Part shown: positions 44,812 through 50,395 of the stretch, in pieces
Position numbering within the stretch: position 1 is the stretch's first letter
Layout of the letters: each line of letters starts with the position of its first letter
Source of the DNA: Georgenia muralis
GTDB lineage: Bacteria; Actinomycetota; Actinomycetes; Actinomycetales; Actinomycetaceae
Direction of reading: 5' to 3'
Assembly: GCF_003814705.1 (NCBI RefSeq)
Contig: NZ_RKRA01000001.1
Location: 558,001 to 622,000 of the forward strand
DNA length: 64,000 nt
The notes under the pieces: generated by a model
What the model saw: the letters and a program-made list of their open reading frames with translations, nothing else
What the model was told of the DNA's origin: nothing
The model's database searches: none
Position numbers and translations under genes: made by a program

Positions 44812-46195
44812 TTCCTTCGTGGGGTGTTAGGCGCTGATGGCGCCTGTGGGGGTGTTCTCCTCCTGTCCGGTCTCGGTGGTGGTGATGAGGGTCAGACGGG
44901 CTTTGGCGAGGGCGTCGAGGCCGAAGTAGCGGCGGCCTTCGGCCCATTCGTCGTGCTGCTCGGCGAGCACGGCCCCGACGAGGCGGATGATGCTGGTCCG
45001 GTCGGGGAAGATCCCGACGACGTCGGTGCGGCGGCGGATCTCGCGGTTGAGGCGCTCGTTGGGGTTGTTGGACCAGATCTGGCGCCACAGGGCCTTGGGG
45101 AAGCCGGTGAAGGCCAGGATGTCGCCGCGGGCGTCGTCGAGGTGGGCGTGGACGTCGGGCAGCTGGGTCTGGACGGCGTCGAGGAGCTTGTCGAACTGGG
45201 CCTGGACGGCGGGGGCGTCGACCTGGTCGTAGACCGAGTGCAGCATGGCCTTCACGGCCGGCCAGGACGCCTTGGGGCACTTGGCCATGAGGTTCGCCGC
45301 GTAGTGCGTGCGACACCGCTGCCACGCCGCCCCGGGCAGGGTCGCCCCGATGGCCTCGACCAGGCCGGCGTGGGCGTCGGAGGTCACGAGCTTGACCCCG
45401 GTCAGGCCCCGGGCAACGAGGTCACGGAAGAAGGCGAGCCAGCCGGCCCCGGACTCGGCCGTGGCGACCTGGACACCGAGGACCTCGCGGTGGCCGTCGG
45501 CGTTGACGCCGGTGGCGACCAGGACGGCGACCTTGACCACCCGGCCACCCTCGCGGACCCGCATCGTGAGCGCGTCCGCGGCGAGGAACGTGTACGGGCC
45601 GGCGTCCAGCGGCCGGGTGCGGAAGTCCTCGACCTGGGCGTCGAGATCCTTGGCCATCTGTGAGACCTGCGACCTGCTCAGCCCGGTGATCCCCAGGGTC
45701 TGGACGAGCTTGTCCATCCGCCGGGTGGAGACGCCCAGGAGGTAGCAGGTCGCCACCACGGTGGTCAGGGCCGCCTCGGCGCGGCGGCGCCGCTCGAGGA
45801 GCCAGTCGGGGAAGTAGGACCCGGTGCGCAGCTTCGGGATCGCGACGTCGATGGTCCCGGCGCGGGTGTCGAAGTCGCGGTGGCGGTAGCCGTTGCGCCG
45901 GTTGGTGCGCTCGTCCGAGACCTGCCCCCACGCTGCACCACACACGGCGTCGGCGTCGGCGGAGAGCAGGGCGTTGATGAACGTGGTGAGCAGCTGGCGC
46001 AGCAGGTCCGGGGACGCCTGGGCAAGGTGGTCCTGGAGAATCCGGGCAGGGTCGATACTGGAAGGAGCGGTCATCGCAGTCGGTCCTTTTCGAGAGTGCT
46101 GTGGAAGGTTCACTCGAAGGATCACGCGGTGACCGCACTCGTCTACGACGACACGCTCACCGAGCTACCGGTACACCACTCTGCTGGACGCAACT
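44774..46195 (-). mobile_element. IS256-family insertion sequence (1422 bp) within the GH51 gene
   Basis: It is flanked by an exact 8-bp duplication CACCTCCC (44766-44773 and 46196-46203), the size expected for IS256. The ends are imperfect inverted repeats. Aligned from the tips, both share GTCC at positions 7-10 and the block GAGTGGTGTAC at positions 15-25 (44788-44798 and 46171-46181 reversed), then GG-T. It carries one transposase gene (44827-46074) in the direction opposite to the host gene. Confidence 0.92.
44827..46074 (-). CDS. IS256-family DDE transposase
   Basis: A 415-residue Mutator-type transposase. DDE residues: Asp in AADALTMRVREGG, Asp in KLVTSDAHAGLVEAI and Glu in NNPNERLNREIRRR; the C-x2-H between them is in WQRCRTHYAANLMAKCPK. 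The N-terminal part (RRNGYRHRDFDTRAGTIDVAIPKLRTGSYFPDWLLERRRRAE) is the family's DNA-binding region. The length is normal and no frameshift is seen, so the element may be active. The ATG at 46074 follows GAAAAGGAC. The gene ends about 50 bases from the left IS tip. Confidence 0.96.
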   Translation of the reverse strand: MTAPSSIDPARILQDHLAQASPDLLRQLLTTFINALLSADADAVCGAAWGQVSDERTNRRNGYRHRDFDTRAGTIDVAIPKLRTGSYFPDWLLERRRRAEAALTTVVATCYLLGVSTRRMDKLVQTLGITGLSRSQVSQMAKDLDAQVEDFRTRPLDAGPYTFLAADALTMRVREGGRVVKVAVLVATGVNADGHREVLGVQVATAESGAGWLAFFRDLVARGLTGVKLVTSDAHAGLVEAIGATLPGAAWQRCRTHYAANLMAKCPKASWPAVKAMLHSVYDQVDAPAVQAQFDKLLDAVQTQLPDVHAHLDDARGDILAFTGFPKALWRQIWSNNPNERLNREIRRRTDVVGIFPDRTSIIRLVGAVLAEQHDEWAEGRRYFGLDALAKARLTLITTTETGQEENTPTGAISA

Positions 46196-46310
46196 CACCT
46201 CCCTGGCGCCGACGCCGAACGAGACCGCCACGGCCGAGGGCGGAGCCGTCCGCATCGAGCTCCCGCCGGTGTCGTGGAGCGTCATGCGGCTGGCGCCGGC
46301 CGGCGCCTGA
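46196..46310 (+). pseudogene. Severed C-terminal end of the GH51 arabinofuranosidase
   Basis: The segment begins with the second copy of the 8-bp duplication and codes for TSLAPTPNETATAEGGAVRIELPPVSWSVMRLAPAGA, the missing end of the gene at 43264, in the matching frame. It has no start of its own. The TGA stop at 46308-46310 lies inside the CTGAG target duplication of the next IS, so a second insertion hit exactly at the stop codon. Confidence 0.92.
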
Positions 46311-46351
46311 GCCCTGATCCACCGGTGTGGTGAGCGTGGCGTAGAACGAGA

Positions 46352-46414
46352 ATGCCCTTCTGGGCAGGGAGGATCTGGATTACGACGTCTAGATCCGACC
46401 ACCCGGAAGGGCAT
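46352..46414 (+). promoter_or_regulatory. Nested hairpin masking the IS1380 transposase start
   Basis: ATGCCCTTC (46352-46360) pairs with GAAGGGCAT (46406-46414), and inside it GGATCT (46371-46376) pairs with AGATCC (46391-46396). The 3' arm includes the GGAAGGG Shine-Dalgarno of the GTG at 46422. Transcripts entering from outside would fold and hide the start, the usual protection of IS elements against read-through expression. Confidence 0.6.
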
Positions 46415-46421
46415 CTCGTAA

Positions 46422-47798
46422 GTGAAACCCTCTCACACGATTCGACCGGTCTTCGATGAGTCCAATCTGGTGTCGGCGGCGGGTCTGGTCCCGGCCCTGC
46501 GGCTGGCGGAGTCCGCGGGTTTGTACGGCCTGGTCGAGGGGTTGACGGTGCCCTCACCCAACGCGGGGGTGAAGACGGCGAGTGTGGTCGGCGGGATGCT
46601 CGCCGGTGCGGACTCCATCGATGACCTGGACCTGTTGCGCCATGGCGGGATGGGCCGGGTCTTCGACGGGGTCCGGGCACCCTCGACGTTGGGCACGTTC
46701 CTGCGATCGTTCACCCACGGTCACGTCCAGCAGCTCGACAAGGTCAGCGGTGCGCTGCTGGCAGGGCTCGCTCGACAGGTTCCCGCCCTGGTGAACAGCG
46801 GCGCGAGGGCGCAGGGCATCGCGTTCGTCGATGTCGACGACACGATCCGGGAGGTCCACGGCTACGCCAAGCAGGCCGCGGCGTACGGCTACTCCGGGGT
46901 CCGGGGCCTGAACGTCCAGCTCGCCACTCTCTCCACGGAGGTGGCGGCGCCGGTGATCGTCCGGGCCCGGCTACGGCGCGGCAACGTCGCCTCGCACACC
47001 GGCGCCGGCCAGCTCCTCGCCCAGGCCCTGGGGACCGCCCGCGCCGCGGGCGTGAGCGGACCGGTGCTGTGCCGGGCGGACTCGGCGTACTACGGCCACG
47101 CCTTCGTCGCCACCGCCCTGCGCCACGGGGTGTGGTTCTCGGTGACCGTGCGGATGAACCCCCAGGCCAAGGCGGCCATCGCGGGCATCGGCGAGGACGC
47201 CTGGACCCCGATCAGGTACCCGCACGCGGTCTGGGACGAGGCCGAGCAGCGGTGGGTCTCCGACGCCGAGGTCGCCGAGGTCCCCTTCGTCGCGTTCACC
47301 TCCCGCCGCAAGGCCGAGCAGGTGACCTGCCGACTGATCGTGCGCCGCGTCCGACGGCTCCAGCCCCTGGCCGGTGACGGCAGCGAGCAGGGCGAGCTGT
47401 TCGCGGCCTACCGCCACCACGCGTTCATCACCAACTCCGACCTGGACACCATCGAGGCCGACCAGCGTCACCGGGGGCACGCGATCGTCGAGCAGGTCAT
47501 CGCCGAGCTCAAGGACGGGCCCCTGGCGCACCTGCCGTCCGGGAAGTACGCGGCGAACGCGGCCTGGGTGGCGATGGCGACGATCGCGTTCAACATCGCC
47601 CGCGCCGCCGCCGTCGCCGCCGACATGGCCACCGCCCGGTGGGCCACCCTGCGCCGGAAGATCATCAACGTCCCCGCCCGGATCGCCACCACCGGCCGCC
47701 GGCTGATCCTGCACCTGCCCGCCCGCTGGGCCTGGGCCGAGCACTGGACCACCCTCCACACCGCCGCGACCGGGCCACCACCAGCCACCACGACCTGA
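46422..47798 (+). CDS. IS1380-family DDE transposase
   Basis: A 458-residue transposase. Catalytic residues: Asp in AFVDVDDTIREVHGYAKQ, Asp in VLCRADSAYYGHAFV and Glu in RHRGHAIVEQVIAELKDGPLAHLPSGKYAANAAW (the family's C-terminal signature). GGMLAGADSIDDLDLLRHGGM near residue 70 is a typical IS1380 block. It is intact with normal length. The GTG start has GGAAGGG upstream, inside a hairpin. About 140 non-coding bases follow before the split right end. Confidence 0.95.
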   Translation: MKPSHTIRPVFDESNLVSAAGLVPALRLAESAGLYGLVEGLTVPSPNAGVKTASVVGGMLAGADSIDDLDLLRHGGMGRVFDGVRAPSTLGTFLRSFTHGHVQQLDKVSGALLAGLARQVPALVNSGARAQGIAFVDVDDTIREVHGYAKQAAAYGYSGVRGLNVQLATLSTEVAAPVIVRARLRRGNVASHTGAGQLLAQALGTARAAGVSGPVLCRADSAYYGHAFVATALRHGVWFSVTVRMNPQAKAAIAGIGEDAWTPIRYPHAVWDEAEQRWVSDAEVAEVPFVAFTSRRKAEQVTCRLIVRRVRRLQPLAGDGSEQGELFAAYRHHAFITNSDLDTIEADQRHRGHAIVEQVIAELKDGPLAHLPSGKYAANAAWVAMATIAFNIARAAAVAADMATARWATLRRKIINVPARIATTGRRLILHLPARWAWAEHWTTLHTAATGPPPATTT

Positions 47799-47950
47799 CC
47801 ACCCAGCCCCCACGGGCACGACCCAAGGAACCCAAGAGTGGAAGAGCCGGCACAGACCGGCGGCCCCACCACGCCCACAAACCCGCCATCCCCAGCACGC
47901 CGCCCGAACAACGACCACCCGGCAGAATCGGTGGATTCTCAATGACTTTG

Positions 47951-49165
47951 TCAAGCCGTTTGGGCCATCGGTTCTCGCGAGGGTGGGGCGAGTTCGAAGG
48001 GTCGGTTGTCGCGGAGCAGGGCCCATAGGACGTCGACGCGTCGGCGCGCCAAGGCGATGAGCGCTTGGACGTGCCCGTGGCCTTGTCCGCGCTTCTTGAG
48101 GTAGTAGTCGCGGTTGGGGCCCTCGCGCATCATGGCGGCTGAGGCGGAGAGGTAGAACACTCTGCGCAGCTTGCGCGAGTAGCGCATCGGCCGGTGCAGG
48201 TTCCCGGTGCGCCGGCCAGAGTCCCGCGGGACCGGGACAAGCCCGGCGGCCGAGGCGAGCCGTCCGGCGTTCGCATAGGCGGCAAGGTCCCCTGCGGCGG
48301 CTACCAGCTCGGCACCGAGGATCGGTCCCATGCCGGGCAGGGACTCGATGATCTCGGCCTGGGGGTGCGCGCGGAAGGTGGTGGTGATCCGGGCGTCGAG
48401 GTCGGAGATCCGCGCGCCGAGCGCCAGGAGCTGAGCGGCGAGGTCGGCCACGATGCTGGCCGCCACATCCTGCCCGGGCACGACGGTCTGCTGGGCCTTG
48501 GCCGCACCGAGCGCAGCTGCAGCGATCTGGTCGGCGCTGCGCACCTTCCGCTTGACCAGCCATGCCCGCAACCGCGACTCACCCGTCCGGCGGATCGCCT
48601 GCGGCGTCTGGTAGCCCGTCAGCAGGACCAACGCACCCCGGCTATGGGCGTAGTCGAAGGACCGCTCCAGCGCAGGGAAGTAGCCGCTGAGCACGTCGCG
48701 GAGCCGGTTGACCACGCGGACCCGGTCACCGACCAGGTCGGTGCGGTGGGTCACCAGTAGCCGCAGCTCGGTCACCAGCGCGGTGGCGACCTCGACGTCC
48801 TGTAGATCGCCGCGGTGTCGCAGGGTCTCGGCGATGACGTAGGCATCGCGGGCGTCGGTCTTGGCCTCACCGCGGTAGGCGCTGGCCATCTGGTTCACCG
48901 TGCGGCCGGGGACGTATCTCACCCGCTGACCGTGGGCTGCCAGCAGTGCCAGCAGCAGTCCCGACATGGTCCCGGTGACGTCTACTCCCCAGACGACCTC
49001 GTCGGCGTGGCCAAGGACGCCGGCGATCGCGTCGAGGATGGCGGCCTCGTCGTTGACCACCTTCGTCGACCAGACTGTGGTGCCGGCCTCGTCGATCAGG
49101 CAGATCCAGTGATGACCCTTACCGACGTCGACACCAGCCCACCCGGGCGCGATCCGTTGCTTCAT
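47951..49165 (-). CDS. IS110-family recombinase (DEDD transposase)
   Basis: A 404-residue protein. The N-terminal RuvC-like DEDD domain has GVDVGKGHHWICLID, VVWGVDVTGTMSGLLLALL and GEAKTDARDAYVIAETLR. A helical middle follows. The C-terminal transposase-20 domain is ESLPGMGPILGAELVAAAGDLAAYANAGRLASAAGLVPVPRDSG, with the conserved Ser believed to attack DNA, followed by RPMRYSRKLRRVFYLSA. The length is normal and no damage is seen. GGAGGAG precedes the ATG at 49165. It needs a bridge RNA to select donor and target, and the upstream 200 bases carry a good candidate. Confidence 0.95.
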   Translation of the reverse strand: MKQRIAPGWAGVDVGKGHHWICLIDEAGTTVWSTKVVNDEAAILDAIAGVLGHADEVVWGVDVTGTMSGLLLALLAAHGQRVRYVPGRTVNQMASAYRGEAKTDARDAYVIAETLRHRGDLQDVEVATALVTELRLLVTHRTDLVGDRVRVVNRLRDVLSGYFPALERSFDYAHSRGALVLLTGYQTPQAIRRTGESRLRAWLVKRKVRSADQIAAAALGAAKAQQTVVPGQDVAASIVADLAAQLLALGARISDLDARITTTFRAHPQAEIIESLPGMGPILGAELVAAAGDLAAYANAGRLASAAGLVPVPRDSGRRTGNLHRPMRYSRKLRRVFYLSASAAMMREGPNRDYYLKKRGQGHGHVQALIALARRRVDVLWALLRDNRPFELAPPSREPMAQTA

Positions 49166-49199
49166 CAACTCCTCCTTCGAGCACACGAGCGATTGCCAT

Positions 49200-49350
49200 G
49201 GCCCGAAGGAACACCCCGCCGACAGATCCGTAAACAGCGACCAGGACGCGCATCTCAATCAGCAGTCAAGGCGCCCCAGGAGGAACCGGGCGGCCAATCC
49301 ATCGGAGCCATCAACGGGCGATCAAGGCTCAGCCACACCCAGCCCTCCCG
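49200..49350 (-). ncRNA. Candidate IS110 bridge RNA (borders approximate)
   Basis: The non-coding end of the IS110 element, transcribed in the recombinase direction, contains four segments that match what a bridge RNA needs, in the known order. (1) 49333-49320: 12 of 14 bases equal the left half of the target, seen intact at 49370-49383. (2) 49305-49297: 7 of 9 bases complementary to the other target half, 47928-47936. (3) 49259-49253: 7 of 7 equal to the element's own end at 47937-47943. (4) 49233-49226: 8 of 8 complementary to the opposite element end, 49365-49372. Segments 1-2 would be the target loop and 3-4 the donor loop. The matches are read directly; transcription and folding are inferred. 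Confidence 0.7.
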
Positions 49351-49459
49351 GGCCACCCAAGAACTTACGGATCAGGGCTGAGCCGCCGCGGCCGGCGCCT
49401 GAGCCGCCACCGGGGCGCGAGCCCGTCCGCGACCGGCCGCGAGCCCGTCCACGTCCGCC

Positions 49460-50395
49460 CTACGGGCGGCGGCTGTGCACGTGCTCGAGCACCCGCGCGC
49501 CGGGCACCGGTCCGGTGACGAGGAGGATCTCCTTGGCCACCTCCGCGGCGCGCATGACCCCGGCGACGCTGACGGCGTGGGCGTGGTCCAGGGCCAGGGC
49601 CGCGACCGTCGGCCCCGAGCCGGACACCAGCGCGGCGAGCGCACCCGCGCGGTCGGCTGCGGCCAGGACGTCCCCGAGCTCGGGCCGCAGCTCCAGCGCC
49701 GCCTCCTGCAGGTCGTTGCCCAGCTGGCGGGAGAGCTGGATGGGGTCCCCGGAGAGCAGTGCGGCGAGGACGGCGTCGTCGAGGCGGGGGGCGGGGCCGT
49801 CGTCGAGGTCGAGGTGCTGCAGCTGGTCGTACTCGCGGAAGACCTCGGGGGTCGACAGGCCCTCGTCCTGCACGGCGAGGACCCAGTGGTAGGTGCCACG
49901 GCTCATGACCGGGGTGATGAGGTCGCCGCGACCGGTCCCCATCGCGGACATGCCGGTCAGGGCGAACGGGACGTCCGCGCCGAGCTCGGACGCGAGCTCG
50001 GCGAGCTCGTCACGCGAGAGGCCCGTCCCCCACAGCTGGTCGCAGGCGAGGAGGGTCGCGGCGGCGTCGGCCGAGCCGCCGGCCATGCCGCCGGCGACCG
50101 GCACCTGCTTCGTCAGGCTCAGGTGGGCCCCGGCGCGCGTGCCCGAGGTCTCACACAGGAGGACGGCGGCCCGGACGGCGAGGTTGGTGGCGTCGACCGG
50201 CAGGTCCTCACCGCGGCCGTGGATCTCCAGGCTGATGCCGTCCGCGCGGGTGGCGACGACGTCCTCGTAGAGGGAGACGGCCTGGAAGACGGTGGCGATC
50301 GGGTGGTAGCCGTCCGGGCGCGGGGCGCCGACGCGCAGGGCGAGGTTGATCTTGCCCGGCGCGCGGACCTGGACCGCGATGGGGGTGGCCGTCAC
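49460..50395 (-). CDS. ispE: 4-diphosphocytidyl-2-C-methyl-D-erythritol kinase
   Basis: A 311-residue GHMP kinase of the MEP isoprenoid pathway, phosphorylating the 2-hydroxyl of CDP-ME in the cytosol. Motifs: [37 protein letters not shown] (substrate loop with catalytic Lys/Asp region), [20 protein letters not shown] (glycine-rich ATP loop) and [13 protein letters not shown] (motif 3). The GTG at 50395 overlaps the rsmA stop by 4 bases (GTGA). The pair rsmA-ispE is conserved. Downstream lies the IS cluster, inserted between ispE and the ABC-F/glmU block. Confidence 0.97.

Follow-up and report, generated by a model that had tools for sequence, protein, structure and literature searches.

Insertion sequences of the IS110 family have reportedly been found in the terminal repeats of other mobile elements, namely IS4321 and IS5075 in those of the Tn21 family and IS1383 in those of IS1384, and going by title IS4321 and IS5075 are said to belong to the IS1111 group. 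According to the accessible part of the seekRNA report, an RNA from the non-coding region of IS1111 and IS110 elements selects the target, with this region lying upstream in the IS110 type (PMC11187229), and the excerpted text on IS900 places TC within a directional target with the motif CATGNNNNNNTCTCCTT (PMC8141618). For IS621, the available portions of two reports describe a DEDD recombinase with both Pfam domains and an RNA in the upstream (left) end, a target loop that stands before a donor loop, guides that include the core, and left guides pairing with the bottom strand and right guides with the top strand (PMC11208160, PMC11208158), as well as a circle-junction promoter built from the joined ends (PMC11208160); the element described here resembles IS621 in all of these points. 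It is an IS110-group insertion sequence within a stretch of 64,000 nucleotides, the whole of which we call the window, and it very probably carries a bridge RNA that guides it into the terminal repeats of IS1380-type elements, which are the habitual target of its clade. What we observed in favour of this is the identity of the sites of its copies, covariation between guides and DNA, a covarying fold, a junction promoter and the grouping of the relatives into a single clade; transcription, excision and RNA-guided strand exchange would follow by analogy with IS621.

The IS110 element sits inside another mobile element (Table 1). This host has a DDE transposase, inverted 13-bp terminal repeats and a short CTNAG target duplication as IS1380-type elements do, and its Pfam domain DDE_Tnp_1_4 is one which we take to represent the IS1380 family. 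As the left repeat is in place and CTGAG stands on both sides, the IS1380-type element is complete except for its right repeat, which the IS110 insertion has split. A Mutator-type transposase gene (44827-46125, minus strand; PF00872, E 5.5e-139) adjoins the nest just to its left, so that three transposable elements follow one another. The recombinase of the IS110 element possesses both domains of the group, DEDD_Tnp_IS110 (PF01548) and Transposase_20 (PF02371), and the closest solved structures are those of ISCro4 (9t56, E 2.1e-8) and IS621 (8wt6, E 8.5e-7). Its listed open reading frame begins at TTG 49258, instead of which we took the ATG at 49165 as the start. The long non-coding left end precedes the gene, as in the IS110 group, and measures about 206 nt from the core to this ATG, and the short right end extends about 15 nt past the stop codon.

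Table 1: Features of the IS110 element and its IS1380-type host, in positions of the window.
Feature	Position	Strand	Basis or remark
IS110-group element	47936..49371	-	1436 bp including one TC core copy; 8 left and 7 right ends compared
DEDD recombinase, 404 aa from ATG at 49165	47951..49165	-	PF01548 E 6.6e-49, PF02371 E 8.4e-19
Core dinucleotide TC, right-end side (GA on +)	47934..47935	-	core comparison, 12 elements
Core dinucleotide TC, left-end side (GA on +)	49370..49371	-	core comparison, 12 elements
TTGACA, putative -35 half of circle-junction promoter, in right end	47949..47954	-	TTGACA in 23/24 elements, TTGACT in 1/24
TAAGTT, putative -10 half of circle-junction promoter, in left end	49362..49367	-	17-bp spacer once joined
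Predicted bridge RNA region (ends estimated)	49210..49369	-	held-out covariance model, alignment, fold
Predicted target-binding stem-loop	49280..49348	-	outer stem 49348-49331/49295-49280; inner stem 49319-49317/49309-49307
Predicted donor-binding stem-loop	49213..49274	-	outer stem 49274-49265/49223-49213; inner stem 49249-49247/49239-49237
Predicted left target guide (LTG) GAGCCUUGAUC	49320..49330	-	matches own target; covariation; in loop
Predicted right target guide (RTG) CGAUGGA	49298..49304	-	one A-C mismatch to TCCACCG
Predicted left donor guide (LDG)	49250..49259	-	ATTGAGA equals right end; last three positions match poorly
Predicted right donor guide (RDG) GTTTACGGA	49227..49235	-	reverse complement of left end
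Host IS1380-type element, main part	46312..47935	+	DDE_Tnp_1_4; repeat and duplication read in sequence
Left IS1380 repeat CCCTGATCCACCG	46312-46324	+	sequence reading
IS1380-type transposase gene	46422-47798	+	DDE_Tnp_1_4 domain
Outer tip of right IS1380 repeat, severed by IS110	49372..49377	+	inner part is 47929-47935
CTGAG duplication left of IS1380-type element	46307..46311	+	sequence reading
CTGAG duplication right of IS1380-type element, beyond IS110	49378..49382	+	sequence reading

The genome consists of one contig and contains eight left ends of this element. All eight show the left junction CTNAGCC(CT or TC)GA-TC-CGTAAG and all seven right ends the junction GAGAA-TC-CACCG, the eighth copy being truncated, with its right end missing from the sequence examined. 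Comparison of these copies with empty IS1380 ends of the same genome reveals site-specific insertion at a shared core without target duplication. The dinucleotide common to both junctions is TC, with GC in two of 12 divergent elements (loci L086 and L099), and its two positions in the window define the element as 47936-49371. CC and AT were also considered as core and ruled out, the former failing in L085, L087 and L088 and the latter in L041 and L082. The target comprises the 13-bp IS1380 repeat CCYYGATCCACCG and the edge of the CTNAG duplication. The original prediction that IS1380 ends are the natural target, which unrelated sites at the other copies would have undone, has held up well: the left half-site, cut before TC, is shared by all eight copies and all seven right flanks match empty IS1380-type ends, with 92-100% identity over 159-160 bases in six of them and 94% over 102 bases in L017.

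It could be argued that the IS110 element never chose this site repeatedly but was carried along by IS1380 elements. The copies in the window, L012 and L013 indeed lie in near-identical IS1380 ends (99-100% over 160 bases), and one nested insertion that moved could explain some of them. However, the seven right flanks represent five distinguishable ends, and six of the eight copies (window and L110-L114) adjoin IS1380-type transposase genes whose products fall into three types, sharing 93-100%, about 60% and 56% identity with the transposase of the window. Relatives in other genera hit further IS1380 types, which differ still from those in this genome. Such hitch-hiking may hold for single copies, but the complete set contradicts it and we consider it extremely improbable. 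The exact AGCCNNGATCCACC is present 20 times in the genome, 19 times as an IS1380-type end (with CTNAG outside in 18) and once elsewhere (L035), and the looser AGCCYYGATC 65 times, made up of 8 guides, 8 occupied junctions, 19 empty ends and 30 other sites. Occupancy amounts to 8 of 27 occupied or empty ends against none of 30 other sites (Fisher p 0.0013, a descriptive value as the ends are not independent). A phylum-wide pattern search gave single matches in three genomes besides this one. Nesting can be reciprocal: at L115 (C1:1973600-1978900) an IS110 copy located in an IS1380-type end has its recombinase gene interrupted at a CTCAG by an IS1380-type copy (C1:1974861-1976495), whose own ends are in turn empty targets for IS110. 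At L111 (C1:2527400-2532400) the IS1380-type transposase next to the IS110 copy matches in two parts, which about 1.2 kb of other DNA separates.

Four short blocks in the non-coding end had been proposed as guides, with 49320-49333 equal to 49370-49383 at 12 of 14 bases, 49297-49305 matching the reverse complement of 47928-47936 at 7 of 9, 49253-49259 equal to 47937-47943 at 7 of 7 and 49226-49233 matching the reverse complement of 49365-49372 at 8 of 8, and each of these matches was recovered exactly. Their order and strand pattern likewise agree with the bridge RNA of IS621 in the part of that report available (PMC11208160). When the end (49195-49360) was shuffled 10,000 times by mononucleotides, matches as good as the first, second, third and fourth block arose in 6, 4179, 5 and 8 cases, respectively, and all four in order in none. 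Taken alone the second block (RTG) is thus at chance level, and its support comes only from the comparison with relatives. LDG is mismatched beside the core. The left guide CCUUGAUC would pair with both repeat types, CCCTGATC and CCTCGATC ends, using one G-U pair each.

As the window end folded alone gave no signal (z -0.60, with 54 of 200 shuffles as stable), folding was based on an alignment. The consensus fold of 20 aligned left ends consists of a target stem-loop followed by a donor stem-loop, both with internal loops, as in a bridge RNA. On this fold 96.2% of the cells are paired against 90.0% in shuffles, two-sided changes are found in 12 of 30 pairs against 4.8 (none of 500 shuffles being as high), and sliding the partners by 1-3 columns lowers the pairing to 32-55%; pairing is weaker in the donor stem (87.5 and 91.4% of the cells) than in the target stem (99.0%). 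LTG, RTG, LDG and RDG all lie within internal loops. The expectation that the blocks are guide loops and not stems is borne out by this covariation, except that 49331-49333 of the first block belong to the closing stem and 49320-49330 form its loop part. A roughly calibrated covariance model based on 11 distant relatives, with the window clade held out, found the window end as anticipated for a model from related IS110 elements, giving a single match in the 64-kb window (49210-49354, minus strand, 98.8 bits, E 4.9e-20). Applied to 24 other loci it reached E < 1e-8 in 12 and only 4e-4 to 3e-3 in L073, L074 and L075, with nothing up to E 1 at L053, L072, L076, L077, L081, L092 and L101. Rfam gave no match up to E 1 within 47800-49500. 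One might still regard the blocks as chance matches in a GC-rich end without any bridge RNA, for which the frequency of RTG-like matches in shuffles and the insignificant single-sequence fold could be cited, but we assign next to no probability to this since the ordered set of four blocks never arose in the shuffles and the covarying fold, the held-out model and the guide-DNA covariation contradict it.

This covariation was measured by permuting the pairings between guides and DNA 100,000 times. Across 17 divergent elements, permutations as good as the true pairing numbered 0 for target-left (LT), 32 for target-right (RT), 50 for donor-left (RE) and 0 for donor-right (LE), and across 12 elements 0, 324, 1607 and 2, respectively; the larger set is the smaller one plus six plasmid copies with L067 dropped, and L081, which has 71% identity and lacks a recognisable left end, was omitted from the guide tests. 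All four guides hence covary with target and donor DNA on the strands bottom, top, bottom and top, as expected of a bridge RNA. Single cases are noisy, as the own DNA is best or tied in only 11 (LT), 6 (RT), 4 (RE) and 12 (LE) of the 17 elements. Clear examples are L082, with the guide ATGGGGGCTT and the site ATGGGGGCTC, and for the right guide L086, L134 and L135, which fit at 8 of 8 positions each. Within the window clade the right guide CGGTGGA (L041, L048) fits TCCACCG exactly and CCATGGA (L044, L050) fits its own TCCGTGG with one G-U pair, yet L047 has the same CCATGGA and a site that misfits. The right flank of L066 and L067 begins another IS110-type gene, so their right-target assignment cannot be relied on. 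The 12-element tests include both of them and the 17-element test includes L066, and their presence reduces the right-target score. These two elements lie at the same place in an integrase-core transposase gene (rve-like, with an E of 4.3e-6 that misses the Pfam cut-off), and the sequence of that gene at the insertion place is matched by the left guide of each.

The guide-DNA covariation supports the idea that the element was steered by its RNA into the IS1380 repeat. Recognition of IS1380 ends by the recombinase protein, with the guide matches as a by-product of shared descent, would be the other way to explain the data. Recombinase sequence and target do change jointly along the tree, so that protein and guide are confounded between clades, and within one genome guide and protein vary together as well (L045-L047 and L044/L050). 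Against this, left guides match unrelated sites under the same fold (L082, L131, L134, L135 and others; none of 100,000 permutations as good), and LTG is the largest difference between clades while the stems for the most part and the donor guides are alike. We therefore regard protein recognition as very unlikely and keep to an RNA-guided choice of the target.

To cover relatives, the protein search sampled 213 family, 396 order and 394 class genomes together with genome contigs and plasmids, and 6 of 168 plasmid records with a match were examined. The left half-site AGCCNNGA-TC is present in all 13 clade relatives with an intact left flank (including L042, L047, L048 and L057), and 11 of the 16 relatives having a right flank show an IS1380-type end there. 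No such end was recognisable in the right flanks of L040, L042, L047, L048 and L057, and IS1380 ends are accordingly verified for most but not all of the clade. The left-flank counts omit L040 (left flank mostly missing) and L052 (internally deleted), the right-flank counts omit L068 (right end lost), and L039, which looks the same as L064, was counted once. This target is specific to the lineage, as sister elements use other sites, mostly translation starts. Empty sites were rebuilt for 20 insertions of 17 sister elements (40-75% protein identity), and 14 of them show a Shine-Dalgarno-like stretch (judged by eye), a short spacer and the ATG of a frame of at least 48 codons running away from the element. 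At L089 the same pattern opens a frame of 18 codons, and it is absent at L087, L104, L088, L066 and L067. At four plasmid loci with gene tables, the listed gene starts exactly at the site in L131, L132 and L135 but not in L133. The left ends of sisters such as L088 and L089 (TCCTTAAG) and L085 (TCCTTACC) carry AAGGA outward, beside the spacer and start codon. Judging from these sequences, a gene whose ribosome-binding site is separated from its ATG by such an insertion may receive a substitute Shine-Dalgarno sequence.

A maximum-likelihood tree of 36 proteins, midpoint-rooted and with long branches and some partial rows, unites the 13 rows that carry the AGCCNNGA-TC half-site in a single clade (100/100), which lies within groups that are otherwise mostly start-targeting (99/97 for 21 rows, 98/98 for 20 rows). 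Comparing seven rows of the window clade with seven close start-targeting elements, identity is 0.34 in LTG and 0.57 in RTG, against 0.86 in LDG, 0.79 in RDG and 0.89 in the 5' side of the target stem. The 3' side of this stem and both inner hairpins reach only 0.68, so the change is strongest in the guides without being limited to them. The simplest reading of these sequences is that one replacement of the target guides explains the target change of the clade, and the direction of the switch depends on the sampling of genomes and plasmids. On balance we favour the wider picture of an RNA-guided lineage, present in several actinobacterial genera, that parasitises IS1380 and arose once from readers of ribosome-binding sites and start codons, with its target guides replaced and its donor half and ends much the same, one guide serving two repeat types through G-U pairing and the insertion probably immobilising the copies entered.

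When the ends of 24 elements are joined, TANNNT follows 17 bp after the -35 half in 21 of them, and this conserved junction promoter is suggestive of a circular intermediate. In the mechanism that we propose, circular excision would join TTGACA of the right end to TAAGTT of the left end and so create a promoter for the bridge RNA. Its first loop would pair with the IS1380 terminal repeat, the left guide with one strand and the right guide with the other, and its second loop with the element's own joined ends, whereupon the DEDD recombinase would exchange strands at the common TC core and place the element inside the 13-bp repeat. The IS1380 ends would then be the habitual target of the clade and no accident of the window copy, with insertion expected at CTNAGCCCTGATCCACCG and CTNAGCCTCGATCCACCG and not at an unrelated site.

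A search of literature titles and abstract openings, with most full texts outside its reach, gave nothing on IS110 elements in IS1380 ends and no match linking IS900 with a bridge RNA or IS1380 with CTNAG. Since precedents exist for IS110-family elements in the ends of other elements, the instructive part here is the natural retargeting. Reprogramming of bridge RNAs has been achieved in the laboratory, and the window clade would be a natural counterpart in which the site differs in line with the left target guide. It offers natural guide-target pairs for studying pairing rules such as G-U tolerance, the TC core and the length of the right guide, an explanation at the RNA level for IS110 relatives that insert between ribosome-binding site and start codon, and an example of a mobile element that specialises in the ends of a different one. 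It shares with IS4321/IS5075 and IS1383, as far as these are described, the use of another element's terminal repeats by an IS110-family element and differs from them in its hosts and target families. The motif CATGNNNNNNTCTCCTT, given for IS900 in the available text (PMC8141618), is also the kind of site at which most of the sister elements lie, whereas the target of the window clade has no start codon and lies in IS1380 ends. While seekRNAs were shown experimentally on other elements, according to the portion of that report at hand (PMC11187229), the RNA of the window element is a prediction. Compared with IS621 as far as it is covered by the excerpts, the window element has only about 20 nt before the target stem in place of a 5' stem-loop, a longer 5' sequence being present in 10 of the 20 aligned relatives, its core is TC and not CT, and its target is the IS1380 repeat where IS621 uses REP elements.
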